Position numbers and translations under genes: made by a program
Notes under the pieces: model-generated
Database searches by the model: none
What the model was told of the DNA's origin: nothing
The model's input: only the letters and a program-made list of their open reading frames with translations
In this document: piece by piece, positions 23,032-45,958 of the stretch
Layout: the number at the start of each line of letters is the position of its first letter
Numbering within the stretch: position 1 is the stretch's first letter
Source of the DNA: Robiginitomaculum sp.
GTDB taxonomy: Bacteria > Pseudomonadota > Alphaproteobacteria > Caulobacterales > Maricaulaceae
Assembly: GCA_002733905.1 (NCBI GenBank)
Contig: NVXK01000001.1
Span: forward strand, 89,770-153,769
Reading direction: 5' to 3'
DNA: 64,000 nucleotides

Positions 23032-23205
23032 CGATAAGCCGGCATGCACGAAGCGTTCAGTTTGAAAGGAGCTGTCCAAACCAAGCGAGCTTGCTCGCGC
23101 AGCCCAAGTTTGGGCGTGTCTATTTTTGAGCAAAGCGTAAAAAATCGACGCGGACAGACCGTTTTGAAAGCGAACGGCTCAAACTGGTAAGCAAGTTGCC
23201 CGGCT
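23032..23205 (+). repeat. Structured dispersed element E1
   Basis: This is one of six related elements. The outer stem P1 is AGCCGG/CCGGCT (23037-23042 with 23200-23205) and P2 is CAGTTTGA/TCAAACTG (23058-23065 with 23179-23186). An inner stem CTGTCC/GGACAG (23072-23077 with 23152-23157) encloses three hairpins: GCGAGC-tt-GCTCGC, GCCCAA-gt-TTGGGC, and the conserved core TGTC-TATTTTT...AAAAAATC-GACG around GAGCAAAGCG. Together they make a multi-branched fold. It sits directly upstream of the 22724 operon. Confidence 0.7.
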
Positions 23206-23309
23206 GAAGGTGAATAATGGGGGGCCGTAAATTCCTAGAAAGTAAATGCCGCCAATGCTCGCAGATACTTAAATATCGGAAAAGGCAACAAGGATATAAT
23301 CGATATAGA

Positions 23310-23546
23310 TTAAGGCACGATCGGTGTCAGGGCTGTGGTGATAGACAAACCGTAGTAAACACGCTCATGCAGTTTATCATACGCATCAGGCCAATTGGTT
23401 GGGATCGTACCTAATGAGGTATTCCAGTGCTCTTTAATCTTGTTCATAATAAAAGCATCCATTTTTCCGCTTATTTTAAAGGCATGTAGATGGGTGCCAT
23501 CATCATCCTCGATACAACATATGTGAATTTCAGAGGTTTTAGTCAT
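23310..23546 (-). CDS. Small hypothetical protein
   Basis: The likely start is ATG at 23546 (MTKTSEIHICC, 78 aa), with GGAAAG upstream; a start five codons earlier is possible. The protein contains an acidic DDDGTHLHAFKISGKM segment. No domain was recognised. Its stop lies about 105 bp from E1. Confidence 0.5.
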   Translation of the reverse strand: MTKTSEIHICCIEDDDGTHLHAFKISGKMDAFIMNKIKEHWNTSLGTIPTNWPDAYDKLHERVYYGLSITTALTPIVP

Positions 23547-23634
23547 GGTATTTCTTTCCATAAAAGTGAGAATTTATAAACTGTGGTTGCTAATGAGTGC
23601 TATCCCTTCCTTTGGCGACATATCACCCAGGCAC

Positions 23635-24495
23635 TTAAAAATAATCAGAACGGTACGGGATTTGATTCAGTATTGTGGGTCTTTGTAAAATTGAAACTTT
23701 ATTGGCAATTAACTGTTTAAGGCGGTTTGTTTTCTTCTGCCTGAAGTCTTCAATTATGAAATCAACAGTCATTCTAGCGGTTTCATCAAGATAACTCTTC
23801 ACGTGATCAGTGCCGTAGTATTCCCCGCCCGAATGCATTATCGCACCATCTTTAATAACATCAAAGTAGTACACATCGCCAAACGCCCAGGCAGCCCATA
23901 GGTTTTCATCCGTCTCAAACCATTCTTTAAAGAGTTTGTCTTCAGATGCTTTAGAAAAGCCACACCGCTTTCTGTGTTCGGGTGTTAGAACGAATAACAA
24001 ATATGCATAATCACCTTGAGAATACCCAGAGGCAGAGGTTGAAACTGCATGAATGCCTATCAAATTGAACATGTCTGCAATAGCATCGATGTAATCTGAA
24101 GCATTTTGGTAATATGAGGGTTTTAGAGAATAAAGTGTATCATCAAAAATACGCCGCCGTTCTTCATTAAAATGTTCAGCGTTTTGACATTCTACATTTT
24201 CACGAACTTCCAGCTCAATTTCTTTAACTTTAAGATCTAAAATCTTACATAAAGCTTTCCAATGCCTTGAGAGTTGGCCCTCAGTATAATATTCGAGCGG
24301 GTCTTGGATATTATCCCCTTCAGCGTGTTCGGTAATATTTCTGTGTCTGCCTGAGATACTTAGCATGGGTGTATTGCAATCCCACATTACCCAAGGGTTT
24401 TCAGGTTGATCGCAGTGCTTTGCTTCAATATTAAAGCCTCTATATTCCCCTTCATAACAATCTGTTGAGTAATGAAAATCAATATGTGCGGTCAT
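23635..24495 (-). CDS. Hypothetical plasmid-type protein
   Basis: This 286-aa acidic protein is rich in aromatic residues. A central SASGYSQGDYAYLL segment resembles a phrase seen in uncharacterised proteins of conjugative plasmids and phages, but I cannot name the family with confidence. No catalytic motif was recognised. It is the last gene of a possible operon with the two small ORFs at 24509 and 24672. Confidence 0.6.
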   Translation of the reverse strand: MTAHIDFHYSTDCYEGEYRGFNIEAKHCDQPENPWVMWDCNTPMLSISGRHRNITEHAEGDNIQDPLEYYTEGQLSRHWKALCKILDLKVKEIELEVRENVECQNAEHFNEERRRIFDDTLYSLKPSYYQNASDYIDAIADMFNLIGIHAVSTSASGYSQGDYAYLLFVLTPEHRKRCGFSKASEDKLFKEWFETDENLWAAWAFGDVYYFDVIKDGAIMHSGGEYYGTDHVKSYLDETARMTVDFIIEDFRQKKTNRLKQLIANKVSILQRPTILNQIPYRSDYF

Positions 24496-24508
24496 TTTGT
24501 CACTCCCT

Positions 24509-24679
24509 CTAATTGTTTTCTGTTAACTGAAACGCAAATGAGCTCCCGTCATTACTGTTTGTTCCGGATGTGAAATCGTTGGCGATTAGCCTGGTAACTT
24601 CCCTTAGACCCGCTTCGATCGCTGCAAGTGTTGAACCCTTAAGAGTTATTGTTGCGCTATATGTGTGTTCTTCAGTCAT
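24509..24679 (-). CDS. Small hypothetical protein, 56 aa
   Basis: A frame of 56 codons plus stop (MTEEHTYSATITLKGSTLAA) starts inside the end of the preceding small gene (8-bp overlap). Composition is protein-like, with an alternating beta-type N-half. It is shorter than usual gene-calling cutoffs. Function is unknown. Confidence 0.5.
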   Translation of the reverse strand: MTEEHTYSATITLKGSTLAAIEAGLREVTRLIANDFTSGTNSNDGSSFAFQLTENN

Positions 24680-24803
24680 GTTTTTTCAATCCTTTGATCA
24701 TGTCTCCTAGACAGGAGTAGTGTGTGATGTGATATTCTTGACGGCCAAAACGAAACTTCGCTTCCTTCTTATAACCGCGCCATAATTTGAAAATTCTCTT
24801 CAT
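24672..24803 (-). CDS. Small basic hypothetical protein, 43 aa
   Basis: The frame MKRIFKLWRGYKKEAKFRFG follows GAAGGG at a suitable distance and ends overlapping the 24509 gene. It is strongly basic. The tight overlap favours a real gene, but the call rests only on context. Confidence 0.45.
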   Translation of the reverse strand: MKRIFKLWRGYKKEAKFRFGRQEYHITHYSCLGDMIKGLKKHD

Positions 24804-24832
24804 CGTAAAACCCTTCAGGTGCTAAAATGACA

Positions 24833-24858
24833 AACGCCCCCCTGTTAAGGAGGGCGTT
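24833..24858 (-). terminator. Intrinsic terminator after ssb
   Basis: AACGCC/GGCGTT with a GC-rich extension forms a strong hairpin just beyond the ssb stop. The T-run on the minus strand is short and interrupted, so termination may be partial. Confidence 0.6.
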
Positions 24859-24866
24859 CTTTAGAA

Positions 24867-25226
24867 TTAAGCCGCTTTCTTTGCGGTATGTTTCTTATTG
24901 CGACGAATTTGCAACATGGATGGGTCCTGTAGCTGAAGTTCCATTGTGCGAACATCAACGCCATCTTTGTTTGTATATTGATCCGACTGCATTTTGCCGG
25001 TAAGTGTCCACTCATCACCTTTTACAATGGCCTTTGCGCGCTTTGCGGCGGGGCCAAAGAATGTAACGGGGATGGCTGATGTTTTTTCTATCCACTGACC
25101 AGATTGATCATAATAACCATCTTGTGTAATGATTAAGGTCGATACAACGGGCTTTTCGTCACTGCCACGAACTGTGATGTCAGTTGCGATCCGGCCTGTT
25201 ATAATTGCGATGTTATTGGCGTTCAT
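24867..25226 (-). CDS. ssb: Single-stranded DNA-binding protein
   Basis: This 119-aa OB-fold protein has the SSB outline: NIAIITGRIATDITVRG at the N-terminus, a TLIITQDG strand, then WIEKTSAIPVTFFGPAAKRA and WTLTGKMQSDQY. It is shorter than chromosomal SSB and lacks the acidic DDDIPF-type tail, ending instead in basic KKHTAKKAA. Plasmid SSBs of leading regions protect the incoming strand and damp SOS induction. It follows element E2 directly. Confidence 0.85.
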   Translation of the reverse strand: MNANNIAIITGRIATDITVRGSDEKPVVSTLIITQDGYYDQSGQWIEKTSAIPVTFFGPAAKRAKAIVKGDEWTLTGKMQSDQYTNKDGVDVRTMELQLQDPSMLQIRRNKKHTAKKAA

Positions 25227-25247
25227 AGTCTTCTCCTGTTTTTAAAA

Positions 25248-25397
25248 TACGGCCCAATGCCGTAGAAAACCGGGAATGATTTGAAGGGGCTGCGATCAAG
25301 GGTGATTTTGTCTATTTTTTTTTAATCGGTAGAGTAAAAAATCGACACAATCCCTCGAAGAGGCCGCGCTTGAACGCACTAAGCCCCACTAAATCAT
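25248..25397 (+). repeat. Structured dispersed element E2
   Basis: This is the shorter relative of E1. The 5' hairpin is TACGGC-ccaat-GCCGTA (25248-25264). P2 is ATGATTT/AAATCAT (25276-25282 with 25391-25397), stacked on GGGGCT/AGCCCC. The core has TTTTGTC-TATTTTTTTT...AAAAAATC-GACACAA. It lies immediately upstream of ssb. It lacks the GGAGCGAAGCGAG arm found in E4 and E6. Confidence 0.6.
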
Positions 25398-25413
25398 AGG
25401 TTTTTACGAAGGC

Positions 25414-25548
25414 ATGGGTTCATCTGTTTTTAGAAATTGGAGATCAAAAGACGAAGAAACGCCAATGTTTATTGATATATATGACTGCCTGACCGAAACG
25501 ACATACGTGCATAGAATTGCTAAGTTGGAGGGTCGCAGAATACCATAG
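25414..25548 (+). CDS. Possible small ORF, 44 aa
   Basis: MGSSVFRNWRSKDEETPMFI continues with a protein-like composition to a stop at 25548. The ribosome site (GAAGG) is too close to the ATG. It is one of the few + strand frames in this block and could be a remnant of a decayed gene that continues to about 25770. Confidence 0.25.
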   Translation: MGSSVFRNWRSKDEETPMFIDIYDCLTETTYVHRIAKLEGRRIP

Positions 25549-25955
25549 GGTTTTGATTTAACGGTAGTGGCCTGCTTCATTCCCGAAAGTTTGCGGCCAT
25601 AAAGCTCCTAAAGGATGTGTAAGGGTCTGAGTGGATTGCCCAACATGCTCGTAAATTCAAACGGGTGACGATTGAACAGCTTCAGCCGGGTTCATCTGCG
25701 AATATGCGTAAAATAAGATCAGATCATTGCTTAATAAAGGAACTCGTCCTTCGGGGGGCGTTATAATTTAGCTATAACCAATGTTCCGCTTTTCCTAGTA
25801 TCCCACAATATTGAAGCCCTCGTGAGCAGTCACGGGGCTTTATTCTATTCGACTTTCGTATAGGGCATTTATGCAAGATTTTGGTAAGCCTGATCTACGG
25901 CGATAACCGAACTTCACGATCTTCTGGTTAAAAGCGGTATTTCAAGTAGGTGTTA
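25549..25955. other. Gap with decayed coding-like sequence and a small-RNA-like unit
   Basis: On the + strand, interrupted frames give readable peptide (EWIAQHARKFKRVTIEQL and IRSDHCLIKELVLRG) separated by stops, suggesting an old gene. A TATAAT box and an orphan + strand terminator follow and are listed separately. The family of the decayed gene is not recognised. Confidence 0.35.
25762..25845 (+). ncRNA. Candidate small RNA with orphan terminator
   Basis: A TATAAT box (25762-25767) is followed about 45 bp later by AAGCCCTCGTGA-gcag-TCACGGGGCTT (25814-25840), a 12-bp stem with one G-U pair, then TTTATTCTATT. No gene on the + strand explains the terminator. The -35 region is poor. An RNA of about 70 nt is inferred. 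Confidence 0.4.
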
Positions 25956-26777
25956 TTAGGAAATTACTTCGTCGGCAAACACTTCACAGGTTTCACCACA
26001 CCCTGATCCAAACATATCATCATTATTAAAATGACCAGATAATATGTCTCTTGTCGATAAGTTTCCTCTAAAAAAGACACGTTTGTATCCTTTAGAATAG
26101 CCGTACTTATCTTCCATCCGCCTAGGGAATTGATATATATCTGGTTTTTCACTGACTAAACGGAAGTGTTTTTTATATGATTTCTTCCAGCACCATGAAC
26201 AATTGCCCTCGTAATTTGCCAAATTTAACGCAAAACTTTGCTTTGCCCACCAATTTTGAACATCCGTTTTGGTAATATTCATCGCAATCAACGGATAAAC
26301 AATATTTTTGTCTTTGTAATTTACGGCGACTCTGTCCATCTCGTCTGCGCGAATACCTATAGCAATATCATAGCTTCCCCTTTCCCATCCGATGGTTTTT
26401 ATGTAATCATACATTGGATTGATTTTCAGCTCACGAGTACAATGGGGATATTTTATATTGGGAATCCCATATTTTTTTATCATTTCCTCAAACACAAACC
26501 CTACCCTGTCTGCTGTCTCGAAATTGACAATTTTATGGGTATTTCCTTTTCTCAAATTCTGGTGTGTTACAGATTCAAGCCAAACCGTTTTAAAATCCAA
26601 CTCATTATCGCAGGCGTTCACAAAATCGAGCGTCTCAGCACGTTCTTGCCCAGTATTGGCAAATAATACTATAATCTCTTTATATGTATGGCCGCATTGA
26701 TTTAAAATCAGCCATGTCATGTATGCGGATGTTAGGCCTCCGCTAAAGCTGATAAACAATCTTTCTTTTTGTAACAT
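25956..26777 (-). CDS. PP-loop / PAPS-reductase-family protein
   Basis: This 273-aa protein has the PP-loop SGGLTS at residues 12-17 and a body like phage and plasmid PAPS-reductase-fold proteins (FANTGQERAETLDFV, later GIRADEMDRV). Cysteines in NCSWCWKK and GSGCGETCEV could bind a metal or cluster. The canonical SGGKDS Lys-Asp is replaced by LT, so chemistry is uncertain. Relatives act in sulfur transfer, nucleic-acid modification or unknown plasmid functions. The start overlaps the stop of the 26777 gene as TGATG. Confidence 0.7.
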   Translation of the reverse strand: MLQKERLFISFSGGLTSAYMTWLILNQCGHTYKEIIVLFANTGQERAETLDFVNACDNELDFKTVWLESVTHQNLRKGNTHKIVNFETADRVGFVFEEMIKKYGIPNIKYPHCTRELKINPMYDYIKTIGWERGSYDIAIGIRADEMDRVAVNYKDKNIVYPLIAMNITKTDVQNWWAKQSFALNLANYEGNCSWCWKKSYKKHFRLVSEKPDIYQFPRRMEDKYGYSKGYKRVFFRGNLSTRDILSGHFNNDDMFGSGCGETCEVFADEVIS

Positions 26778-27229
26778 CAGACAATTTCGTGCGAATCAAA
26801 CGGGCCATCCACGGCGTCCATAAATAGATCTTCGTCTATTAAGTCCACAATGCGTTTTTGTAATGCCTTCAAAACCAAGCTGGTATTTACGTCCTCGGCC
26901 GTACTTGATGAAGAATTTATCGAAAATGCCAAGTCATATACATGATTATATTGAGGTTTTTTATGACTTGTAACATTAATGATGTTTTCTAAAATCTTTA
27001 GGTTTTCGGAGGTTTCTACCAAACCAAATTTATTTCCCTTTAGATACAAAGCGCATTGGCATCCTTTGCTCACCACTTTATTTTTATCATTGCTGGCCAT
27101 TTTGTAGTTTTTGCCAAACAATTTTTCAAAAATTTTCTTGGTATCGGGCAAATCGCAATTTGTATCGACAACGCAATACATTTGGCTGAAAGGATGGCAG
27201 TCTTTAAATGTGAAATATACTTTAGCCAT
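26777..27229 (-). CDS. Hypothetical protein coupled to the PP-loop gene
   Basis: This is a 150-aa Lys/Asn-rich protein without a recognised domain (MAKVYFTFKDCHPF). It overlaps the PP-loop gene by one base and lies one base after the 27231 gene, so the three form an operon. A role connected to the PP-loop protein is suggested by context only. Confidence 0.55.
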   Translation of the reverse strand: MAKVYFTFKDCHPFSQMYCVVDTNCDLPDTKKIFEKLFGKNYKMASNDKNKVVSKGCQCALYLKGNKFGLVETSENLKILENIINVTSHKKPQYNHVYDLAFSINSSSSTAEDVNTSLVLKALQKRIVDLIDEDLFMDAVDGPFDSHEIV

Positions 27230-27230
27230 C

Positions 27231-27800
27231 TTACCCTCCTCTGTTTGAGATGATAAAGAGAGTTTTTAGCCTGGCTTCAAAAGGATCATATCCACCTTGA
27301 ATACTGTACATTGTCGCTGTTCTTATGGCTTGTTGTTCCGTTTTACACTCATGAAGGTCTATGCACCCACCGTCTATCCTATGCCCATAAATAGTCCAGA
27401 AATCTTCTTCTCCTGGTTCACACTGATCAATATAACTATCTTGCAGGATACAAGGAGCAATCTCGATACCATCATAGAGTGACCAATCAGGCTCTTTACC
27501 ATCCACACAACAATTGTAATCCTCCAAAGTTGCTAGACGATTTTCCAGTGCCATTTGTTGATCGTAATTTACAAGCTCGCTGACCCTAAATAGTCTCCAT
27601 TTACACGCTTCCAGTTCTTGCGAAAAATAAGCAACAGCTCCCCCTTTATGTCCTTCAGTAACAGCAAACCAGTTATTTGGATGCGGTTGGTTTCCAAATG
27701 CGCTCTGACAACTTTCATTGAGATCATTGCAATCTTCAACAAGTAATTCTTCAAGAGCCTGGTCCAATGTGTAAGCTTTGTGATGTATATCGATGTTCAT
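27231..27800 (-). CDS. Hypothetical protein, first gene of the PP-loop operon
   Basis: This 189-aa acidic protein (pI low by eye) has cysteines in YNCCVDGKEPDW and GGCIDLHECK. No domain was recognised. The start at 27800 follows a CAGGAGAG ribosome site and a short structured leader (27828-27904). Confidence 0.55.
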   Translation of the reverse strand: MNIDIHHKAYTLDQALEELLVEDCNDLNESCQSAFGNQPHPNNWFAVTEGHKGGAVAYFSQELEACKWRLFRVSELVNYDQQMALENRLATLEDYNCCVDGKEPDWSLYDGIEIAPCILQDSYIDQCEPGEEDFWTIYGHRIDGGCIDLHECKTEQQAIRTATMYSIQGGYDPFEARLKTLFIISNRGG

Positions 27801-27827
27801 AATTCTCTCCTGTGAAAATCATCCGAG

Positions 27828-27904
27828 AAAATACGGAGAGAACCGACCAAGGCCTGAGCTTGCTCAGTGCATTAAGCCTTGGGAAGGTTTCTAGATCGTA
27901 TTTT
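27828..27904. other. Cruciform-rich leader upstream of the 27800 gene
   Basis: AAAATACG/CGTATTTT (27828-27835 with 27897-27904) encloses CCAAGGC/GCCTTGG (27847-27853 with 27876-27882), which encloses CTGAGC-tt-GCTCAG (27854-27867). All stems are perfect and nested in under 80 bp. Confidence 0.55.
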
Positions 27905-27931
27905 AGGATCGATTTCATCAGGTGAACACTT

Positions 27932-29101
27932 CTACGCAAATGAATATTTGTTGTTCGTCTTTGCTTTGAACTTCAGATATTTTCTGACGTCGCGCAGCAG
28001 CATTGAAGGCATTTCGTAGATTTGTTTTGATTCCATAATCGCGCCGATGGTTATTTCCGGGCGGCAATCTTCTCTTTCCCGTTTCAAAATCGCGGAAAGA
28101 TAACGATTTGGGCACCGGATAACCTCTCTTTCGTTCCAAGAACGGTTGTCAGGAATTGGGGCTAAGCGCATTTCACGTACGATTTGGGTATCTAAAACTG
28201 CGAGCAAGGCTTTTCTACGGCCGTGTTTAGCGACGCCCTTCTGCCAAAAGAAGTTTTTATATGCAGGCTGACGGGTTTCCTTGAGTTTTATGATCTCTTC
28301 AACGAGGTAGGCCTCATTTATCTCATCGGGGACGTCCTCCCCTAAAATACTAAGTCCTGCTGACGCCACAGCCTCAAATGTTTCGTAATCAAGCTCAGGA
28401 CCCGCCTCAACCTCTTCATGTCGCAAGGCCTTTTTCCTACAGATTACTGCCCCCTTTGTTTTGGGTTCTGTAGTTTCAGTTTTGACCTCTGTAGTTACAA
28501 GTAAATCCCCTCGTAGAGGGTGTAGCTGGCTTACTGACCCCCTAAAGGTAAATAAAGAGCGAAACCAAGAGAGAAATATCTCAGATGTGAAAGTATATAA
28601 ATTCTTGCGGTTCATTGCCTTTCCCCTGATCGGCCGTTCCTGGATAGAGAGGATCCCTGCCCTCTCCATAGCGCGTAAGGCTGTCTTGACCGTGCCCCGG
28701 CTTACACCCGCACTTTTGACAAACCAGTCATGAGCAACTTCAAACACCTCGTCACCATCCGTAAAGCGAACCATAGAAGCAATTATGGCTCGTTGAGCCT
28801 TTGTCGGATTAAAACCCTTAATGTAGGGGAAATTTCTCATGGTTTTGTGTGAAGCCGCGTGCCACCGTTCTTCCATCTTCTGTTTTTTGGCTGAAGATTT
28901 GTCACGAGCGATCGCTTTAACCATTTTATCACCATCTTTTTCATACATGGCGATGATAGATTCTCGTTTTACGAGCCGCGATTGCATTAGTTCTTCTGAC
29001 ATTAAGCCGGCACACATATCCTGAAAGTCTTGTGAACGAAGGGCAAGGTTTTCATCAATAAGAACCTGTTTTCGTGCTAGTAATTTTGACAAAGCTGTCA
29101 T
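27932..29101 (-). CDS. Rep-like replication initiator with winged-helix domain
   Basis: The start chosen is ATG at 29101 behind GGGAGTGACC, giving 389 aa. Residues about 95-165 form a winged-helix pattern (VAHDWFVKSAGVSRGTVKTALRAMERAGIL is the recognition region). The C-terminus has CPNRYLSAILKRER, reminiscent of C-terminal segments of alphaproteobacterial initiators. The order parA, small partition proteins, RNA-bearing gap, rep mirrors repABC. The identity as initiator is inferred from context; a transcription regulator is the alternative. Confidence 0.5.
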   Translation of the reverse strand: MTALSKLLARKQVLIDENLALRSQDFQDMCAGLMSEELMQSRLVKRESIIAMYEKDGDKMVKAIARDKSSAKKQKMEERWHAASHKTMRNFPYIKGFNPTKAQRAIIASMVRFTDGDEVFEVAHDWFVKSAGVSRGTVKTALRAMERAGILSIQERPIRGKAMNRKNLYTFTSEIFLSWFRSLFTFRGSVSQLHPLRGDLLVTTEVKTETTEPKTKGAVICRKKALRHEEVEAGPELDYETFEAVASAGLSILGEDVPDEINEAYLVEEIIKLKETRQPAYKNFFWQKGVAKHGRRKALLAVLDTQIVREMRLAPIPDNRSWNEREVIRCPNRYLSAILKREREDCRPEITIGAIMESKQIYEMPSMLLRDVRKYLKFKAKTNNKYSFA

Positions 29102-30698: not shown

Positions 30699-30699
30699 T

Positions 30700-33902: not shown

Positions 33903-35756
33903 TTAGGACGCTTTTGCTTGAGGGGAGGGGAGTGTTTCCTCCTTCTTCGTCGCAACAGCTTGTGTTTTCGCATTATAGGCTTTTGTCTTACGGACGGACG
34001 GTTTCTTTAATGTCCGTTTTTTCACAATATTGGTGCGAATATCCATAGGAACCCACTTTTTCTTCACCGATTGTCTAAATGCTGCACCAGCCAAGTCTTT
34101 CTTCTTTGCCTTCTCATAAGGTGTAATATCCATACCCATTTCAGACATGGCATGACGAAGCTGTTTACCGTTCATACGGTTGAAGAACTCCTCGTCAGGT
34201 GTCCAACGATCGGTAATGTCCAAACCAATGGTTTTCGCGACAGTTTTAAACAAAACCGAGTTAGTTTCATTGATCATGTTGAAGTTAACACCCTGTGCCA
34301 AAATATCAGCACATAGCATTGCCCTTTGATCATCCGTCATCTTATAAATGGTTTTAAAAGCTTCAGCCCCGTTAGATTGTTCCGCTTTATTAGGTCTTTT
34401 ATACTTAGGAGTTGTAATCCCCTCATAGTTTGCGTTCCTTGAATATCCAACTTTTACATCAATGCAGTAGATACCACTAATCATAGACGCCAACATCAAT
34501 GACAAAGCTGCTTTGGAGGGATTTTCAACCATATGGGCGGTTAATGCGCTGCCTGCCAGCGTGCCCATGCTACTTTTGAGTGTTTTTGACAGGTTGGCAG
34601 GATCATCGGCCTTTTTAAGAGCAGCCGTTTTTTCCTTTTTGGTATTTAAGATATAGGTTTTGAAACTGCCATACGCCCAACATGTAATTACAATCGCGTT
34701 TTGTTTTTGGGCTTCGGTGAAGTCATGTGTCTTGGCATAGAGGGCGTTATATTTGGTATCAGCCTTCTTAATGGCTTTTTTCTGGGCCGCAGTTGCCTCC
34801 CAATTGAACTCACGCGCCTTATCCAATTTTTTCAAACTGGCTTTCTGGGCTTTAGTACCGATAAAAGCCTTAAATAGTTTTGGACCATATTTTTTCTTAA
34901 GCCTTTCACTTAAATTATAGTCATATTCGACCAATTCGGTATTTGCCCAACCATCTGCCTTAAATTTTTCAGTTTTTGCCGTAAGTTTGGCATTAAAGAG
35001 TTCTGCTACAATATCGCCGTTCAAAAGACGTGTTGTTTCTTCAAACAGATCATCTTCTGTCTTACCTCCAGCATCTTGATAGGCTTTCATGCCGATAAAC
35101 TTAACCACATCATCTGTCAGATAATAGGTATCTTCGTTCAAAGCAGTCTTTACATCACTGGCATATATATTGGATAAATTCGACTTGATGTCCTTAAATA
35201 TGCGCAATTGCCGTTTCGTATCATTGGTAGACGCGAAAGCTCTTGCCACATCTACAGTCATTTTACCGTCTTCGAGAGCCTTAAAGATCGCTTTCGGCAA
35301 ACTCATTAAGGCCAGAATACGTTTAACATCATTGGCTTCAATATAATATAGTCGGGCTATATCGGCTTCACTTGTACCCGTATCATATAATTTCTTATAG
35401 GCTTTATACTTATCGACGGCTGACATATCCGTGCGAAAAGAATTTTCATTCAAAGATGCCGTTAGGGCTTCACTTTGCGAAAGGATATGTACTGGAATTC
35501 TTGTCATATCGATTGAATCTGGTAATTTTAATGACGCCACTAACATTTTAATGGCTTCAAGGCGTGTACCACCCGCACAAATTTTGACATTTGAGTCCGT
35601 ATCGACATAACCAATCAAGTTCTGCAACAATCCAATTTCAACAATAGACGCCACCATTTCGTCCAGGCTTGCCTTGTAAGATTTTGATTTTCGGTCGGTA
35701 CGCACATTTTCAGGTGCAATACGAAGTAAGTTTAGATCATAGTGTTTGATAGACAT
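33903..35756 (-). CDS. ParB-domain (ParB/RepB/Spo0J N-terminal) protein, plasmid type
   Basis: This 617-aa protein has an N-terminal ParB/Srx-like domain (residues 1 to about 110: IAPENVRT, then CAGGTRLEAIKML with the GGTR loop at 62-65) and a helix-turn-helix region near residues 120-155. A long Lys-rich C-terminal half has no recognised fold. It is longer than segregation ParB proteins (about 300 aa) and is far from parA, so it is probably not the ParA partner. Large ParB-domain proteins like this are common on conjugative plasmids. It follows E3 and, further upstream, a PAPS-reductase-like gene. Confidence 0.75.
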   Translation of the reverse strand: MSIKHYDLNLLRIAPENVRTDRKSKSYKASLDEMVASIVEIGLLQNLIGYVDTDSNVKICAGGTRLEAIKMLVASLKLPDSIDMTRIPVHILSQSEALTASLNENSFRTDMSAVDKYKAYKKLYDTGTSEADIARLYYIEANDVKRILALMSLPKAIFKALEDGKMTVDVARAFASTNDTKRQLRIFKDIKSNLSNIYASDVKTALNEDTYYLTDDVVKFIGMKAYQDAGGKTEDDLFEETTRLLNGDIVAELFNAKLTAKTEKFKADGWANTELVEYDYNLSERLKKKYGPKLFKAFIGTKAQKASLKKLDKAREFNWEATAAQKKAIKKADTKYNALYAKTHDFTEAQKQNAIVITCWAYGSFKTYILNTKKEKTAALKKADDPANLSKTLKSSMGTLAGSALTAHMVENPSKAALSLMLASMISGIYCIDVKVGYSRNANYEGITTPKYKRPNKAEQSNGAEAFKTIYKMTDDQRAMLCADILAQGVNFNMINETNSVLFKTVAKTIGLDITDRWTPDEEFFNRMNGKQLRHAMSEMGMDITPYEKAKKKDLAGAAFRQSVKKKWVPMDIRTNIVKKRTLKKPSVRKTKAYNAKTQAVATKKEETLPSPQAKAS

Positions 35757-35825: not shown

Positions 35826-36008
35826 CCGGACAATTCCGGTAGGGAGGACGCTGCATTTTAGACGCAAAGCTCAAAACCAAGCGAGCTTAAGCGAGTGCAG
35901 TCCAAGCCTGAGCCTGTCTATTTTTCAAGCAAAGCGTATAAAAATCGATGGGGTCTGGCCGTTTTGACCGCAGCGACGCCAAAATGCTAGGCGTACGGAA
36001 CGGAGTTG
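35826..36008 (+). repeat. Structured dispersed element E3
   Basis: The 5' hairpin is CCGGA-caat-TCCGG (35826-35839). P1 is CAATTCCG/CGGAGTTG (35831-35838 with 36001-36008), containing a G-T/U wobble that pairs only on the + strand. P2 is GCATTTT/AAAATGC (35853-35859 with 35981-35987). Conserved words CAAAACCAAG, TGTCTATTTTT, AGCAAAGCG and AAAAATCGATG are present. It lies about 70 bp upstream of the ParB-domain gene. Confidence 0.7.
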
Positions 36009-36208: not shown

Positions 36209-37060
36209 TTACTGATTAATCTTTATACCCGTTATCTCCTCCAGTCCTTTTCGGGACATCGAGAGTGTGTGATTGATCTTTTTTTCCAGTTTTACATATA
36301 TTGCATAGAGTTTCGGGTTCTCTCTCGCTGAGATTGTGAGATCACTAACACTGGCCATAATGCAAAAACAACAACTAAGCCTGGACATACCTTTTGCGTA
36401 GGCCCAATGCGGTTTTTGCCCCATTTGCGCTATATAACCAAAGACTTCCTGTTCTGACCACGCATGAATTGGTAGCCAATCAAACCATTCTCTGCCGGCT
36501 TTCGAGTTTTTCTGATTGAAAGTAAACGGGTTACGTTTGGCTCTAGCAGAGCTTTCTTGGGCTCTAAATCCCATGCAATTGACTAATAATTTGTTGTACT
36601 GCGGATTTCGTTTTAAGAACCGTCTCAATTCGCGCTCAATAGGCCCACGTTTAAGATCACTTGTGCATTGGCGAATACTAGGGCTGGGAAACATACCTCG
36701 CTCCTCGATCATTTGTAGCAGGCCTCGACGCGCTTTTGCAATTATGAGGGGATATCCAAATCCGTAATTTTGAATGTGGTCAATATTACCCTCCCATTCG
36801 ACCTCACCAAGATCCGCATGAATAAGAATGATTTGTGCGTCGGGTATTTTATAGGCTCGCAGGGCGAGCAACATGGCTTGGCTGTCTTTTCCGGCCGAAT
36901 GACTGACAGCAAAGAGCGCGCCGCGCTGTACCAGTTCCTCAATATGAGGAGGAATGACAAGTTTGCGTAATTTTGGAGCAAACATCTCAAATTGGGCGCG
37001 GGCTTTATGAGGGACATCGATTGGATGGACAATTGTAGGGTCTTTGATTTGTGTAGACAT
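36209..37060 (-). CDS. PAPS-reductase-like PP-loop protein
   Basis: The start chosen is ATG at 37060 behind GGAGA, giving 283 aa. The PP-loop SHSAGKDSQAM (SAGKDS at residues 55-60) is intact. A later MGFRAQESSARAKRNPF and the cluster LSCCFCIMAS resemble the plasmid/phage PAPS-reductase family, in which the cysteines are conserved. The next gene downstream is the ParB-domain protein, and PAPS-reductase plus ParB-domain neighbours recur on mobile elements (IbrA/IbrB is one described pair). Sulfate reduction is unlikely; a regulatory or nucleic-acid-modifying role is inferred. Confidence 0.75.
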   Translation of the reverse strand: MSTQIKDPTIVHPIDVPHKARAQFEMFAPKLRKLVIPPHIEELVQRGALFAVSHSAGKDSQAMLLALRAYKIPDAQIILIHADLGEVEWEGNIDHIQNYGFGYPLIIAKARRGLLQMIEERGMFPSPSIRQCTSDLKRGPIERELRRFLKRNPQYNKLLVNCMGFRAQESSARAKRNPFTFNQKNSKAGREWFDWLPIHAWSEQEVFGYIAQMGQKPHWAYAKGMSRLSCCFCIMASVSDLTISARENPKLYAIYVKLEKKINHTLSMSRKGLEEITGIKINQ

Positions 37061-37110
37061 ATAAATCTCCGTAATTAGGAGCATGGTCTGCAATCCATGC
37101 TCCTAATGTG

Positions 37111-37722: not shown

Positions 37723-37794
37723 TATCTTTTCGCTTTCCATTGATTTGCGCGTGCCAGGCTTCTCTTTTCAGAAACGCAGACACCGTTTTTGTAT

Positions 37795-37875: not shown

Positions 37876-37885
37876 GGGGGCTGCA

Positions 37886-39352
37886 TTAGCTCAGTTCTTC
37901 AACTTTTTCGCGAATAGCCAATTTTTCCCAGTCCAAAGGCAGAGATTTTTTGGGCTTGTCGATAATTTGAATAGCCGAATATGCCTGGTAGAGATCGTAA
38001 CTACGCGTTGAGACCCGAAGTCTGAAGACTGGCACACCAATCAACTGATAGACGCCATCTTTCCAACCGGATTGCACGCGCACGCCATCGCTGGTAATTC
38101 CTACGGTTTTGAAATGCGCGTAAGACCCCTTTGAATGCGCCGAATACAAACTTTGCGGCACGAGTGTAACATTGGCTATTTTTGGATCCCCATATGATTT
38201 TGCGCGTTTGTGAGATTCAGCGATTTGTATATTCCAAAGGGCTTGCAAACGAATAAGGTCCTCATCGGTCGGGTTGATGATTGGCGATTTTGTCTTGGTA
38301 GATGTTGATTGACGTCGTTCTACAGGTGTTGGAACCTCATAACCTGACGCCTGCATAAGCTCACGCCACTCGGTATTTGTAAGTTCTACAGAGCGCGTGG
38401 GGGCAATATGTAAGGGCAGGGTAACGGGAGATTCCAATATATAACCATAATCGCTTAGGGTTGCTTTGGGTTTTTCAGCGCCCATTTTGCGAGCAAAAGT
38501 TTGTAAAATAACCGGCGTAAGGTCTTTGGTGTAAACCTCCACAGGGCCAAGCATTTGGCGTTCATAGGACAATCTATTGAGATAATGGGTAAGCCAGCGT
38601 TGACGGAAGGTGCTCGAAATTGTGTTTTCCAGTCGTTCAATATTTTTAGCTTTGCACTCAGCATGAGTAATATCGCCCTTTTTGAGCTGATGGTACAAAT
38701 GTGTTGATGCACCGCTATAACTGCCTGATAAGGTTTCAATCTGATCATCGGACAAATCTCTAATCCAAATACCAAGGTAATTTTCCGCATCATTTTTCAC
38801 TCGCTGATGATCTCTGAGTGATTTCAGTAGGGTTTCAATACGTCGCGTCCGCACTCTGGGATCGTTTTTGTGGTTTGCGTGCGCTTGAACACCGATGATT
38901 TTCCAGTTCCAGTATTTTACGGCTTCAGAGGCTTTGACAGATTTTTCAATATTGCTTGAAATTCGTTCCTGGTCTTTACGGGCGCGTTTTTCGGAATGAT
39001 GACCGATCAGTATCGGTTGACCAAAGGGGATGTTACTTGAAATATCGCGCGCAGCATTGGCAAATGCATCTGCTTGCGTGGCTCTATTTTCAGCAATGCC
39101 TTCTAATCTGTCCATTTTGGCTTCAGCGCGTTCAACCATTGTTGTTTGTTCAGCCGTAATTTCTCCGGCAAGCTCAATACAAAAATCTTCACGAGCAGGG
39201 GTCCACATTGGGGCAACAAACAATTCTTGTTTTGGTGCCCACTTAAAACCTGCATCTTTGACGCGTAAATATAGCTCTTTATCGAGCCTACTGGACGCGT
39301 AGAGCCTAAGCTTGTTATCTTCTACACTATAGGTTGCTTCTAAATCTGACAT
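37886..39352 (-). CDS. DUF3560 plasmid protein
   Basis: The start is ATG at 39352 behind AGGAGATAAC, giving 488 aa; the longer frame would read through element E4. The N-terminus (ATYSVEDNKLRLYASSRLD, then AGFKWAPKQELFVAPMWTP) is the DUF3560 signature, widespread on conjugative plasmids of Alpha- and Gammaproteobacteria. A coiled, charged middle and a C-terminal region of unknown fold follow. Function of the family is not established. Confidence 0.85.
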   Translation of the reverse strand: MSDLEATYSVEDNKLRLYASSRLDKELYLRVKDAGFKWAPKQELFVAPMWTPAREDFCIELAGEITAEQTTMVERAEAKMDRLEGIAENRATQADAFANAARDISSNIPFGQPILIGHHSEKRARKDQERISSNIEKSVKASEAVKYWNWKIIGVQAHANHKNDPRVRTRRIETLLKSLRDHQRVKNDAENYLGIWIRDLSDDQIETLSGSYSGASTHLYHQLKKGDITHAECKAKNIERLENTISSTFRQRWLTHYLNRLSYERQMLGPVEVYTKDLTPVILQTFARKMGAEKPKATLSDYGYILESPVTLPLHIAPTRSVELTNTEWRELMQASGYEVPTPVERRQSTSTKTKSPIINPTDEDLIRLQALWNIQIAESHKRAKSYGDPKIANVTLVPQSLYSAHSKGSYAHFKTVGITSDGVRVQSGWKDGVYQLIGVPVFRLRVSTRSYDLYQAYSAIQIIDKPKKSLPLDWEKLAIREKVEELS

Positions 39353-39410
39353 GTTATCTCCTAAAAATACCGTGCATTCCCAAGCTTTTGAGATCGGGTA
39401 CGGTTTCTGG

Positions 39411-39587
39411 CCGGACAATTCCGGTAAGGAGGCCGCGTCATTTGAAGGGCGAAGGTCAAAACCAAGGGAGCGTAGCGAGTGCAGAACAAGCGTTTTCGTG
39501 TCTATTTTGAGCAAAGCGAAAAAATCGATGCGAAAGGGCAGTTTTGAACGCAAGCCCGTACAAATGGTAAGCAACGGAACGGAATTG
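39411..39587 (+). repeat. Structured dispersed element E4
   Basis: The 5' hairpin is CCGGA-caat-TCCGG (39411-39424). P1 is CAATTCCG/CGGAATTG (39416-39423 with 39580-39587) and P2 CATTTG/CAAATG (39439-39444 with 39561-39566). TCAAAAC pairs with GTTTTGA inside. The core is TGTCTATTTTGAGCAAAGCG then AAAAAATCGATG, whose TGTC/GATG ends pair through wobbles only on the + strand. It lies about 60 bp upstream of the DUF3560 gene. Confidence 0.75.
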
Positions 39588-39680
39588 TCTAAGAAAATGG
39601 CCTGATGGCTTTAAAGAGTTATTTTTGAGGGAGAATAATTCATCTCAACCTCATTCCCATATTATATATGTGTAGATAGG

Positions 39681-39701
39681 AAAACGCCCCCGAAGGGGGC
39701 G
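39681..39701 (-). terminator. Intrinsic terminator after dnaN
   Basis: CGCCCCC-gaa-GGGGGCG forms a strong hairpin 15 bp beyond the dnaN stop, followed on the minus strand by TTTTCC. Confidence 0.8.
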
Positions 39702-39716
39702 CAACCAATTTACACA

Positions 39717-40859
39717 CTAACCGTTGTACGTCATCAAAACTTGAGTGAGTTGTGGAAGTTCGGTATTATGAAGTGTGATTGGACTTCTATGGTCTACAAT
39801 CGCCATTCTAATTGTTGGGTTTTCAGTTTTAGAGTATCCGGCCGCTACAATAGCTTGCGAGAACAAGTCAATTCTAAGGCTAAGCGTTGTATCTTCGCCA
39901 GTATGGCGAATAATTTCAGTTTCTGTTGTGAGGAGTGGCTCAAACCTTTCATCATCACAAAGGCTCGTCATTTCAATACTGCCATTTACGTTTAGTTTCA
40001 CTGGATGTTTTTCATATGGTCCAAATATTGTTTTAAAACGTGTCTTATGCGGTGCGATAGCACGTACAAGATTTTGAGCTTTAATTTCGACGAATTCAGT
40101 GTTTTTAGGGATGACCCGATGATAATCGGGAAATGTACCGTCAATAGCTTTAGTCGTGAGCGCAAAGTCTCCTACCGTGAACCTGATACGCAATTCATCT
40201 GTACTTAAACAGGCCGTTTCACCTTTTTTGGCATTGGTTAAGGCCTTTAAGATCAATTTAATTGACTGGTATTGGATGATTACGCCTTCAAAATTTTCGG
40301 TATGCTTGCCTGTTTCGTACTTCGCAAGCCTATGGCCATCAGTGGCGACAAAGGATAGATTTTGATGGATGGAATGCATAAAAATACCATTGAGGTAATA
40401 TCGGGCTTCTTCCTGAGACATGCATGGCGCTACACTTTTGAGAATCTTCAGAAGCACCTCGGCTTCAAACTCGAATTGCAGTGTCTTGGTGATTTCCGGC
40501 CCCCGCATGTATGGAAACCCGTCTTCAAAGTCCAAGCATTTGATATTTTGCAGTATTTCGTCTTGTTCAAAACTGACAAGATCGGGTGTGACGTCCACGC
40601 TTACCGGGTCTTTCGCATTGAAAGATTTAGTGATTAATTTGAGGGTGCTCAGATCAATAAAAATTTCAGCATTTGTTGGTTCGGTGCAGCCTGTAGCAAC
40701 AATCGTCTCAACTTCATTGTCGAGATCAGTATTTGCAAAAATCACATTGCCATCATGGACTTTTATAAGCACCGACATAAGAACAGGCAGTTTTGAGCGT
40801 GAATACGCATTGTTTTGAATAAATACATTGAGCATTTTTTTGGATGTCGTGAATTTCAT
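39717..40859 (-). CDS. dnaN: DNA polymerase III beta sliding clamp, element-borne copy
   Basis: The start is ATG at 40859 behind GGGAGAAAACC, giving 380 aa, close to the usual 366-375. The clamp outline is visible: an N-terminal MKFTTSKKMLNVFIQNN, a second-domain YYLNGIFMHSIHQNLSFVATDGHRLAKYE, and a C-terminal hydrophobic end. ATDGHRLA is the most diagnostic motif. A clamp gene here is unusual; it could recruit host polymerase for complementary-strand synthesis after transfer. It follows element E5. Confidence 0.9.
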   Translation of the reverse strand: MKFTTSKKMLNVFIQNNAYSRSKLPVLMSVLIKVHDGNVIFANTDLDNEVETIVATGCTEPTNAEIFIDLSTLKLITKSFNAKDPVSVDVTPDLVSFEQDEILQNIKCLDFEDGFPYMRGPEITKTLQFEFEAEVLLKILKSVAPCMSQEEARYYLNGIFMHSIHQNLSFVATDGHRLAKYETGKHTENFEGVIIQYQSIKLILKALTNAKKGETACLSTDELRIRFTVGDFALTTKAIDGTFPDYHRVIPKNTEFVEIKAQNLVRAIAPHKTRFKTIFGPYEKHPVKLNVNGSIEMTSLCDDERFEPLLTTETEIIRHTGEDTTLSLRIDLFSQAIVAAGYSKTENPTIRMAIVDHRSPITLHNTELPQLTQVLMTYNG

Positions 40860-40919
40860 GGTTTTCTCCCATAGAGTATGAAGCCAAAACCCGCACAACA
40901 CGGCGGGCATGACGTAAGG

Positions 40920-41120
40920 CCGGACAATTCCGGTAGGGAGGTCGAAGTGTTTTTAGACCGAAGATCAAAACCAAACGAGCCGAGCGAGAGCCGTGAAGCG
41001 TTTGCATGTCTATTTTTAAGCAAAGCGCAAAAATCGATGGGCGATAAGCAGTTTTGAACGCAGAGAGAAAAATGATATGAGAACGGAACGGAATTGGCCA
41101 ACACCGTGAATGTTGGCCAA
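40920..41120 (+). repeat. Structured dispersed element E5
   Basis: The 5' hairpin is CCGGA-caat-TCCGG (40920-40933). P1 is CAATTCCG/CGGAATTG (40925-40932 with 41089-41096), and P2 is a T5/A5 stem extended by G-T wobbles on the + strand. CAAAAC/GTTTTG and the core TGTCTATTTTTAAGCAAAGCG...AAAAATCGATG are present. A local hairpin TTGGCCAACA/TGTTGGCCAA (41094-41120) overlaps the end of P1, so the two are alternatives. It is upstream of dnaN. Confidence 0.7.
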
Positions 41121-41164
41121 ATAGGGTTCAAATTCATAAAATATCCAGCAATCAATATACCTGA

Positions 41165-41653
41165 TTACCACCAATCAATATCATACCCTTTTTCTTTACA
41201 AGCTTGCCCCACTTTGATTTCCAGGCTTCGATTATTGATGTCGTACAAATCCCGCAACATCAATTTTACCTCTTCAGATGTGATCTTGAACGGCAAATCT
41301 GTGACATATTTTGAATTATTCCACATACGGGATATATCTTCTTGGGCGTCACTTAGGGACATTTCATGATACTCCCCATAATATTCGGCGTAGTTAATCC
41401 CAATAACTTCACAAATATAATGCGCCACGATGTGAATGTTGGAATCCGTAGTGCCGTCACAACCATATCCCGGTATATATGGCCTGAGCGTAAATTGTTC
41501 GGTTCCGTAGCCAGCATCGTTGGGAGAAAACCCGTTATGTTCGTTCCAGATAATATGAAACGGCTTTAAAACTGGGTTTTGTTTGATTTTATGTGAAAAG
41601 TTGTTGCGGGTTTTTCGATCCAGTTCATCGAGGTCTATAAATGCGCCCATCAT
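41165..41653 (-). CDS. Hypothetical protein
   Basis: A 162-aa protein with no recognised domain (MMGAFIDLDELDRKTRNNFS); the C-terminus ends YDIDWW. The start overlaps the stop of the 41650 gene by 4 bp. It is the last gene of a four-gene operon headed by the 42577 start. Confidence 0.55.
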   Translation of the reverse strand: MMGAFIDLDELDRKTRNNFSHKIKQNPVLKPFHIIWNEHNGFSPNDAGYGTEQFTLRPYIPGYGCDGTTDSNIHIVAHYICEVIGINYAEYYGEYHEMSLSDAQEDISRMWNNSKYVTDLPFKITSEEVKLMLRDLYDINNRSLEIKVGQACKEKGYDIDWW

Positions 41654-41928
41654 AACATGGCTCCATCATCCAGTTCCCACGCCGTAAGAATATGCAATGC
41701 CTGAGCATAATTTGTCGCCTCAACAGGGGTTGAGAAAGTAATATCGATGTCTATATGACCATCAGGTATTTCACGGGTATCACAAAGGTATCCATTCTCG
41801 TCTAAAATGACTGTGTAAACATCATAAGAGTCCGCTTGCGCGATATCGCATCCTTCATATCCTAAAGGTTCGGTAGTTTCCGGGATGCACTTCATCGGTG
41901 TTATGCGAATTTCTGTTGTAACACTCAT
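41650..41928 (-). CDS. Small hypothetical protein
   Basis: A 92-aa acidic protein (MSVTTEIRITPMKCIPETTE) without a recognised domain. It overlaps both neighbours (by 1 and 4 bp), which supports its reality. Confidence 0.55.
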   Translation of the reverse strand: MSVTTEIRITPMKCIPETTEPLGYEGCDIAQADSYDVYTVILDENGYLCDTREIPDGHIDIDITFSTPVEATNYAQALHILTAWELDDGAML

Positions 41929-42323
41929 TACTCCGCCCCCAAGTTTTTAGGAACGTTGAGGTAATGGATGTGTAAATCGTGATCATTTTCCTTCAAGACT
42001 GCGTAAGCTTGTTCATTGTCATCAGCTATGGGTCCGTATGCACCTGCATCCCATTCATCTTCTATGAGACCTCGTAAATAGGCTTCACGTGCAGCAACGG
42101 TGCGATGTAGTTTCACCTCTAAGCCGTTTTTGTGTTCAACAACCGTGACATAGGCGAACATTTCATCGGGTATCTCTTCCAAAATAGTGCGGTCTTCACA
42201 CGCGTTACAGGAACCTTGTTCAAACATTTCAGCTAACACCCATTGTTGGGTATCCTTATCAAAAGCTACGAATGCGTCTCGACGCACATCTTCGCTCTTA
42301 CAGGTTTTACAACGAATTCTCAT
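41928..42323 (-). CDS. Hypothetical protein with zinc-ribbon-like cysteines
   Basis: A 131-aa acidic protein whose first 45 residues have two CxxC pairs (RCKTCKSED and SCNACEDR), fitting a small zinc ribbon. The rest has no recognised fold. It overlaps the upstream gene by 4 bp. Confidence 0.6.
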   Translation of the reverse strand: MRIRCKTCKSEDVRRDAFVAFDKDTQQWVLAEMFEQGSCNACEDRTILEEIPDEMFAYVTVVEHKNGLEVKLHRTVAAREAYLRGLIEDEWDAGAYGPIADDNEQAYAVLKENDHDLHIHYLNVPKNLGAE

Positions 42324-42577
42324 TGGACCACTCCATTACCACGATTGGAGTCCGCACGTTTCGCATCGGCCATAGCCTGCAAAGCTTCTTGAGTGACTTC
42401 GATTACATAATCACGACCATTATCTTGAGCGATGAATGTGTAGGCTCCTGAATTGGAATTATAGACAGGCACCCGTATTTTCGCAGTTTTTGACACAATG
42501 GTATGTGAGTTCTCCGTAGTATTTTGATTAAAAGACCAAATCTGGAGAGCGTTTGGCTTTAGATATTGTTCTGACAT
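42320..42577 (-). CDS. Small hypothetical protein downstream of element E6
   Basis: The start is ATG at 42577 behind GAGGAAAATCATT, giving 85 aa (MSEQYLKPNALQIWSFNQNT). The longer frame would run through E6. The protein is beta-rich by eye, with no recognised domain. It is the first gene of the four-gene operon. Confidence 0.55.
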   Translation of the reverse strand: MSEQYLKPNALQIWSFNQNTTENSHTIVSKTAKIRVPVYNSNSGAYTFIAQDNGRDYVIEVTQEALQAMADAKRADSNRGNGVVQ

Positions 42578-42642
42578 AATGATTTTCCTCATGTTCAAAC
42601 ATCTGATTTCCTCCAAGCTTGATGGCTTTGAGCAAATGTAAG

Positions 42643-42818
42643 ATCGGATAATTCCGATAGGGAGGGCGCGCATTATTGGTGTGAAGTGCAAAACCAAGGG
42701 AGCGAAGCGAGCGCAGAACAAGCGTTCTTCTGTCTATTTTTGAGGCACGAAAAAATCGATGGAGGAATGCAGTTTTGAAGTTTGCAAAGCAATAATGGTA
42801 AGCGGACGGACTGGAATT
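42643..42818 (+). repeat. Structured dispersed element E6
   Basis: The 5' hairpin ATCGGA-taat-TCCGAT (42643-42658) differs in sequence from CCGGA/TCCGG of E3-E5 but keeps pairing. P1 is AATTCC/GGAATT (42650-42655 with 42813-42818). P2 is CATTATTG/CAATAATG (42671-42678 with 42790-42797). CAAAACCAAG, GGAGCGAAGCGAG, TGTCTATTTTTGAG, AAAAAATCGATG and GCAGTTTTGAA are conserved. It lies about 65 bp upstream of the 42577 operon. Confidence 0.75.
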
Positions 42819-45956: not shown

Positions 45957-45958
45957 TT

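Follow-up and report, generated by a model that had tools for sequence, protein, structure and literature searches.

An important question raised by a 64,000-nucleotide stretch of Robiginitomaculum sp. DNA (GenBank assembly GCA_002733905.1, contig NVXK01000001.1, forward-strand positions 89,770 to 153,769; hereafter the window) is what six related structured elements, E1 to E6, are doing in intergenic gaps immediately in front of six minus-strand operons. A first-pass annotation of this DNA had described them as dispersed folds with covarying stems that belong to no family known to it. We consider it probable, at roughly 0.8, that they are single-stranded DNA (ssDNA) promoters, situated in the leading region of a conjugative element of the F-type/MOBF kind, and work like Frpo of plasmid F. 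In our best reading they represent a new alphaproteobacterial family of ssDNA promoters, with six clear copies here and one or two diverged copies nearer the origin of transfer (oriT).

Six related elements in front of six operons

The elements end 20–70 nt upstream of the start codons, and the operons behind them carry, in order, small genes, ssb, a ParB-type helix-turn-helix (HTH) gene, a DUF3560 gene, dnaN and four small genes. For the DUF3560 gene, dnaN and the operon behind E6, an internal start codon with a ribosome-binding site was chosen. In window coordinates, the copies are:

23032–23205, plus strand: E1, fold on the putative transferred strand (T-strand), upstream of the minus-strand operon starting at 23008
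25248–25408, plus strand: E2, the most diverged copy, upstream of ssb (start 25226)
35826–36008, plus strand: E3, upstream of the ParB-HTH gene (start 35756)
39411–39587, plus strand: E4, upstream of the DUF3560 gene (likely start 39352)
40920–41097, plus strand: E5, upstream of the element-borne dnaN (likely start 40859)
42643–42818, plus strand: E6, upstream of four small genes (likely first start 42577)

Read directly, the sequence bears out the six copies at these places, each upstream of a different minus-strand operon, as well as the quoted arms of the stem P2 and the 5′ hairpins of E2 to E6. Two further claims of the first-pass annotation, i.e. that the copies share five short words and that they have a 5′ hairpin, have to be corrected: no copy has all five words exactly (E3 to E6 have four each, E1 has two and E2 has TGTCTATTTTT only), and E1 is without a clean hairpin. 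A core pattern, TGTCTATTTTTN{2,26}AAAAATCGAY, has five matches in the window, whereas 100 shuffles give a mean of 0.00; E4 has one T fewer. A shorter pattern, GTCTATTTTN{3,30}AAAATCGA, picks out exactly E1 to E6 in the whole 3.48-Mb genome, six times forward and never in reverse, and a reversed control pattern has no match in the same genome. At the operon-side end of E3 to E5 stands the word CCGGACAATTCCGG (35826–35839, 39411–39424 and 40920–40933), whose complement would fold into a hairpin close to the mRNA 5′ end. The word may have a second pairing partner in CGGAATT-like words at the element's other end.

The fold and its selection

In silico, each element forms a nested hairpin on the plus strand, consisting of the stems P2 and P3 and an A/T-tract tip stem, P4. 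With arms that were cut by landmarks and not by pairing, the duplex energy of each copy's own arms was the best of 720 arm assignments, both for P2 (−45.7; mean −30.2) and for the outer part of P4 (−42.3; mean −28.4). A 34-pair structure written from the folds was then compared with a structure-free MAFFT alignment of five of the six copies (A4), from which E2 was omitted because MAFFT misplaced it. In this alignment 92.2% of 167 cells are paired (83.4% after shuffling), 11 of the 34 pairs have changed on both sides (4.9 in shuffles) and the covariation score is 0.285 (0.131 shuffled), each of these values being reached in 0 of 500 shuffles; in slid versions of the structure, paired cells drop to 36–48%. 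The claim of covarying stems therefore stands for P2 and outer P4, on the arm assignments and the alignment shuffles, but not for P3, which is nearly invariant and contributes no covariation. A covariance model of the other five copies recovers E2 with 19.8 bits (E 0.022 in 374 kb). Stability against shuffles is, taken alone, moderate, with z values on the plus strand of −2.3, −6.1, −2.4, −2.0, −1.8 and −2.4 for E1 to E6. Overall, the fold is under selection.

The strand that folds is the plus strand, i.e. the one opposite to the coding strand of the operons and thus their template. In the five aligned window copies, 15 G·T cells stand against a single A·C cell on this strand (binomial p 0.0005, the cells not being independent), and these 15 would become mismatches on the opposite strand. 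Moreover, the tip stem TGTC/GATG keeps two adjacent wobble pairs beside a T·C mismatch, one of them U·G in all five copies, the other G·U in four and G–C in the fifth. With RNA parameters the plus-strand fold is the lower in energy for six of six elements; with DNA parameters the minimum free energy (MFE) of the T-strand lies below that of its complement in all 12 window and related copies. MFE strand asymmetry was also tried as a scanner and dropped as too noisy, element-free regions being equally asymmetric.

Promoter-like words on the 3′ arm

The 3′ arm of every fold carries a −35-like hexamer and, beyond it, a word of the form T[GC]NTANG, the TA of which follows the hexamer after 16–18 nt (21 in E2):

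E1, plus strand: TTGAAA 23164–23169; extended −10-like word TGGTAAGCA 23185–23193
E2, plus strand: TTGAAC 25370–25375; TCATAGGTT 25394–25402
E3, plus strand: TTGACC 35964–35969; TGCTAGGCG 35985–35993
E4, plus strand: TTGAAC 39544–39549; TGGTAAGCA 39565–39573
E5, plus strand: TTGAAC 41054–41059; TGATATGAG 41073–41081
E6, plus strand: TTGAAG 42775–42780; TGGTAAGCG 42796–42804

The distance from the A-tract stem to TTGA[A/C] is 19, 19, 19, 20 and 19 nt in E1, E3, E4, E5 and E6, and 28 nt in E2. In all 20 aligned copies of the window and of the plasmid family described below, TTGA[A/C] lies 18–20 nt past the A-tract, TTGAC in the plasmid copies being partly built in by their anchoring on a TTGAC-like word. 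The combination of boxes is present in six of six copies as opposed to 0.1–0.3% of dinucleotide shuffles of each flank, a figure that is descriptive, because the box pattern was drawn from the same copies. By sequence, the hexamers look good at −35 and poor at −10. With regard to a −35, −10 and UP element reconstituted in a stem, the elements have a UP-like A-tract, the −35 spacing (with E2 as an outlier) and a weak −10, in box pairs that a standard scan does not flag. In the duplex the promoter words face away from the operon, and it takes the folded single strand to turn them towards it. Between E5 and dnaN (40889–40908) there is also a terminator-like stem on the minus strand, which would cut read-through into dnaN.

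Additional hairpins and gaps without a fold

Two further hairpins are found nearer oriT:

22068–22180, plus strand: E0, a diverged hairpin upstream of gene 21330–22022, with nested arms AATAATGAC/GTCATTATT and TAAAACAGCC/GGCTGTTTTA
21112–21204, plus strand: a weaker candidate hairpin upstream of gene 20801–21034, with 20-nt arms that are 85% complementary

E0, which was missing from the list in the first-pass annotation, has two nested perfect arm pairs of 9 and 10 nt (z −4.6 on the plus strand, −3.8 on the complement). Over the gap of the weaker hairpin the complement strand is slightly more stable, and both hairpins are without the core words. Six other gaps in front of minus-strand genes in the block (starting at 20475, 24496, 29135, 31642, 33234 and 37741) have no such fold, with z on the plus strand between −1.84 and +0.55; an element is therefore not a feature of every operon. 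A fold that is stable on both strands (z −3.3 and −4.3) lies at the block's edge (44126–44292), upstream of an HTH (BetR-like) gene at 43811–44125.

Relatives in plasmids and other genomes

The architecture recurs in MOBF plasmids of Sphingomonadales, at the same place and in the same orientation. Plain blastn of E3 against plasmids gave no match. A scan of genome contigs with the core word pair returned 54 loci, seven of them with a TTGA word within 30 nt (L050, L055, L059, L060, L061, L067 and L074). L050, with two copies, and L074 were kept for their matching flank arms and a TTGAC 14 nt on; the other 52 were set aside by eye, unfolded, and the single viral contig (L079), without a TTGA flag, was set aside as well. 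The word pair thus leads to Croceibacterium mercuriale (two copies) and an uncultured Erythrobacter, and blastn from these copies to a Croceicoccus marinus plasmid (85%, whole query) and to Sphingopyxis terrae pStJH (51 nt). The gene order in these relatives is relaxase, TraD, a gap and leading genes (DUF2493, SSB and others), all in one direction. The Sphingopyxis copy matches 24 plasmid records including its own, all from Sphingomonadales. Among the 16 that were inspected, a minus-strand gene lies directly on the operon side in 14 (11 DUF2493, three hypothetical), and no gene is annotated there in the other two.

The two-anchor core is present in 21 of 22 candidate copies (L124 is without the anchor pair), the T-strand is the more stable one in 21 of 21, and the folds range from −38 to −67 kcal/mol. 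An alignment of 15 of the 21 anchored copies (A5), which omits near-duplicates and one short copy, shows P3 as GTCAGGGA/TCCTTGAC with a G·T pair in 14 of 15, and the tip stem as CCGATTTT/AAAATTGG with a G·T pair in 12 and G–C in three; 48 G·T cells stand against two A·C. TTGAC, here part of the anchor, lies 18–20 nt past the A-tract in every one of the 15 copies.

With R2, a covariance model of this plasmid family, 15 distinct places score strongly (16 rows, E < 1e-7; four are model members) at 11 loci, all 15 in T-strand orientation and including the Croceibacterium, Erythrobacter and Croceicoccus copies. R2 also matches 10 of 299 genomes of the window's order, six with E ≤ 1.9e-8 and four weakly (3e-5 to 4.9e-4), which may be false. 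The one of these ten that was examined in detail, G143, belongs to the six stronger matches and to the window's own family, and has two copies 1 kb apart, with −51.1 and −41.4 on the T-strand as opposed to −33.0 and −29.4, and an SSB gene nearby. The Croceibacterium, Erythrobacter and Croceicoccus copies contain the window word TGTCTATTTTT...AAAAATCGATG and score 42–68 bits with R2 and 16–22 bits with the window model. The window set is thus linked to the plasmid family via a shared core word and architecture, and not by a direct model match. Three sphingomonad plasmids have, before ssb, long T-strand foldbacks of −73 to −88 kcal/mol in 240 nt (L095 15098–15337, L100 20088–20327, L102 15600–15839), which are of a different sequence type and without TTGAC.

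The host element, its leading region and a probable oriT

Metabolic genes of the chromosome occupy the first 11 kb or so of the window, followed by a MOBF relaxase gene and traD on the minus strand, a minus-strand block from 20 to 44.7 kb and the genes of an F-type type IV secretion system (T4SS) on the plus strand. Within the block between TraD and the T4SS, the open reading frames (ORFs) taken as genes are on the minus strand and directed at the relaxase/TraD end. This gene content identifies an F-type/MOBF conjugative element, with the region as its leading region:

13703–16672, minus strand: MOBF relaxase (TrwC domain and helicase; PF08751, 8.8e-54)
16669–19053, minus strand: coupling protein TraD/TrwB (PF10412, 4.9e-111)
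19067–19471, minus strand: small gene upstream of traD, in the trwA position, no family match
19472–19874, no strand assigned: probable oriT region, intergenic, upstream of the trwA-position, traD and relaxase genes, with inverted repeats at 19540–19561 and 19652–19699
24867–25226, minus strand: ssb (PF00436, 1.3e-12)
33903–35756, minus strand: ParB-HTH protein (PF17762, 1.4e-8)
37886–39352, minus strand: DUF3560 protein (PF12083, 2.5e-31), within a longer ORF at 37886–39574
39717–40859, minus strand: DNA polymerase III beta clamp, dnaN (TIGR00663, 1.3e-37, slightly below cut-off)
44800–56399, plus strand: F-type T4SS genes (TraE, K, B, C, W, U, TrbC and others)

The elements are therefore placed in a leading region before early genes such as ssb, and the relatives have the same plan. 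Samuel et al. have described this plan and the genes it comprises, together with Frpo promoters whose stem contains −10, −35 and UP elements (PMC11541004). F itself shows the plan too, its leading-region genes being directed at oriT.

We placed oriT of the present element at 19472–19874 because this position matches that in a Burkholderia plasmid with an F-like T4SS and R388-like trwABC genes, in which a cloned region contains a functional oriT and the intergenic stretch upstream of the trwA-like gene is the likely site (PMC4853378). With oriT at this position, the plus strand would enter a recipient first and would be the template of the block operons, i.e. the T-strand is probably the plus strand. 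The words shared with two relatives in the oriT region amount to one 9-mer with each. Near 19540–19575, a hairpin with a nic-like stretch behind it may, at a guess based on MOBF nic sites, be the nic region.

Several other genes of the window deserve mention. dnaN (39717–40859) is an extra sliding clamp on a conjugative element, located in the leading region behind an element of its own, E5. Two proteins of the PAPS-reductase family with weak similarity to DndC are also encoded in the leading region (25956–26777 and 36209–37093), and that of the Croceicoccus plasmid contains a PAPS-reductase gene too. The element is bordered by chromosomal propionyl-CoA carboxylase and methylmalonyl-CoA mutase genes (1500–13000). 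A search of the window for tRNA genes found none; the integrated element is therefore without an evident tRNA site here.

Comparison with Frpo and other known systems

Like E1 to E6, the Frpo/ssi elements (Frpo1 and Frpo2 of F, ssi of ColIb-P9) are situated in the leading region upstream of ssb and early genes directed at oriT, and form a T-strand stem-loop with an A-tract stem at its tip (PMC9849209, PMC11541004). Folded in the same way, the F Frpo hairpin is T-strand biased (−46.7 versus −41.2), has an A/T tip stem and lies about 180 nt before ssb. Where E1 to E6 have TTGA[A/C], the F arm has, by our own reading of its sequence, TGGACA. In contrast to Frpo, E1 to E6 have alphaproteobacterial relatives, at least six copies with covarying arms, and conserved wobble pairs and a T·C mismatch in the tip stem. 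The candidates Frpo′ and Frpo* were likewise predicted from structure and −35/−10/UP words before leading-region ORFs, and came to light either through BLAST with five known sequences or, in four islands, through a search for words and structure; unlike for E1 to E6, no covariation analysis appears to be reported for them, and neither covariance nor Alphaproteobacteria figure in the main text of that study (PMC11541004). A survey from 2026 still relies on BLAST, with 18 known or putative Frpo sequences as queries (PMC12826799). Upon deletion of Frpo1 or Frpo2, reporter proteins did not rise significantly, as described by Couturier et al. (PMC9849209).

Full-text searches of the open literature, a set with few subscription papers and no preprints, yielded among the titles and abstract starts listed no paper on such promoters in Alphaproteobacteria, and Rfam 15 has no match in the window at the gathering threshold. 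The earlier statement that the elements belong to no known family is thus borne out with respect to Rfam, but their functional kind, the ssDNA promoters of the Frpo/ssi type, is a known one. On present evidence E1 to E6 would be Frpo-like in the way they work, and we do not claim membership in the Frpo sequence family. Hairpins close to oriT and ssi or primase initiation sites are also single-strand folds of transferred DNA. E1 to E6 differ from these in standing one before each of six operons and in their promoter-like spacing.

Alternative explanations

The elements could instead act as ssi sites only, i.e. as T-strand hairpins that recruit a primase or primosome, or that make primer RNA, without driving any gene. 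The same T-strand folds would serve priming, and Masai and Arai, to judge by a title of 1997, are said to have first described Frpo also as a primer-RNA site. However, priming needs neither a copy before each of six operons at 20–70 nt from the start codon nor a −35-like spacing kept in two families, and we regard a role in priming alone as unlikely. Their position and covariation are also what cis-regulatory leaders of minus-strand RNAs would have (autogenous control, riboswitches or antitermination) if cotranscribed with the operons, and the terminator-like stem in front of dnaN and minus-strand promoter-like sites at the far ends of E4 and E5 would suit such leaders too. In a minus-strand RNA, however, the G·T and T·G pairs of the plus strand turn into A·C mismatches (15 versus 1), and the minus strand folds less well with RNA parameters as well, in six of six elements; moreover, a terminator scan yields only weak stems (at most four G–C pairs), at or inside E1 and E6, and Rfam again offers no match at the gathering threshold. 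Since the fold belongs to the template strand of the operons, RNA leaders do not fit; the wobble-pair strand test and the lower minus-strand stability led us to reject them, and we consider them very unlikely.

A family of small RNAs made from the plus strand, antisense or divergent to the operons, would at least use the strand that folds. Yet all six loci lie directly before the start codons of opposite genes, and the TTGA and TGNTA words at the 3′ end of the fold would be useless to a small RNA, which leaves this explanation a very slim chance. Several related copies with short inverted ends (AATTCCG/CGGAATT) might also suggest dispersed mobile repeats inserted between operons, resembling miniature inverted-repeat transposable elements or repetitive extragenic palindromes. 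But the orientation is the same in six of six copies, the core pattern is found nowhere else in the genome, the arms differ by compensatory changes and the relatives in other plasmids keep the genic position, so that we give mobile repeats next to no credence.

The interpretation of E1 to E6 as ssDNA promoters also has to be weighed against a number of our own observations. With respect to the strand, MFE asymmetry is unusual only for E3, E4 and E6 (background percentiles 3.1, 0.8 and 2.4), whereas E1, E2 and E5 are at the 37th, 22nd and 21st percentile of the window background, and against shuffles the two strands of E2 and E5 are equally extreme. There is no T-strand bias over the whole leading region (mean +0.32; T4SS region −1.21), nor over that of F (+1.24), and the assignment of the T-strand to the plus strand rests on synteny with a putative oriT position. 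With respect to the promoter words, the −10 boxes (TAAGCA, TAGGCG, TATGAG) are of poor quality, and the spacers measure 16–18 nt (21 in E2). A standard sigma-70 consensus scan, the sites of which are overall not enriched (54 versus 44.4 ± 7.4 in shuffles), flags none of the six T-strand box pairs but 9-of-12 minus-strand sites at the far ends of E4 (39591–39564) and E5 (41101–41072). In 40 leading-region gaps of five plasmids, TTGAC occurs 11 times on the T-strand and eight times on the other, i.e. without clear bias. With respect to relatives, the Frpo2 region of F, whose sequences alone among known Frpo/ssi sequences were used for BLAST, has no similarity to the window or to five plasmid and genome loci: the best match is 13 nt long (E 0.76), and the match in the window is outside the elements. 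None of 397 other genomes of the order has a copy that the window model detects, R2 does not find E1 to E6, and in the plasmid family only four of 25 consensus pairs show changes on both sides. Finally, the window copies are paralogues of one element, so that their covariation numbers do not have the standing of a formal R-scape result, and structure and box patterns were picked with the sequences already in view.

A proposed model for expression from the incoming strand

From the above we infer transcription from ssDNA, recognition by RNA polymerase, early expression, shut-off and a possible role in priming, which can be combined in the following model. The relaxase would nick at 19.5–19.9 kb, and the plus strand would enter the recipient first. 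On this incoming strand each element would fold as seen in silico, with the wobble pairs and the T·C mismatch in its tip P4, the TTGA −35-like box on the 3′ arm of P3, and P2 leading to the −10-like TGNTA word. RNA polymerase would read the paired arms as duplex promoter DNA. From the hairpin base it would run on into the single-stranded DNA 5′ of the hairpin, and this DNA is the template for the minus-strand operon (ssb, the ParB-like gene, the DUF3560 gene, dnaN and others). Early genes could thus be expressed before second-strand synthesis. Once the complementary strand is made, the hairpin would be lost and the promoter words would be directed away from the operon, which would make expression an early event that limits itself. 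Priming of complementary-strand synthesis may be a further use of the RNA.

Going one step further, alphaproteobacterial MOBF elements may have an ssDNA-promoter superfamily of their own, which shares no sequence ancestry with Frpo and is represented in front of many leading operons; to this we give even odds. The arms would evolve by compensatory changes, whereas the tip stem with its conserved wobble pairs, joined in the window and its nearest relatives by the T·C mismatch, is kept. This tip would serve as a pre-strained UP element or as the site of a dedicated factor that distinguishes the folded T-strand from the duplex.

If true, a family that lacks similarity to the known sequences but has comparative evidence for its fold and folding strand would suggest that zygotic expression from the incoming strand is a general or repeatedly evolved device of conjugation. 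Surveys of ssDNA promoters begin from a few sequences of enterobacterial plasmids and their BLAST relatives (PMC11541004, PMC12826799). A covariance model would provide a way to find leading regions and their early genes, i.e. those for anti-defence, SSB and a replication clamp. In addition, the wobble pairs, the T·C mismatch and the spacing between A-tract and −35 would be a testable clue to how polymerase may discriminate a folded strand from a duplex.

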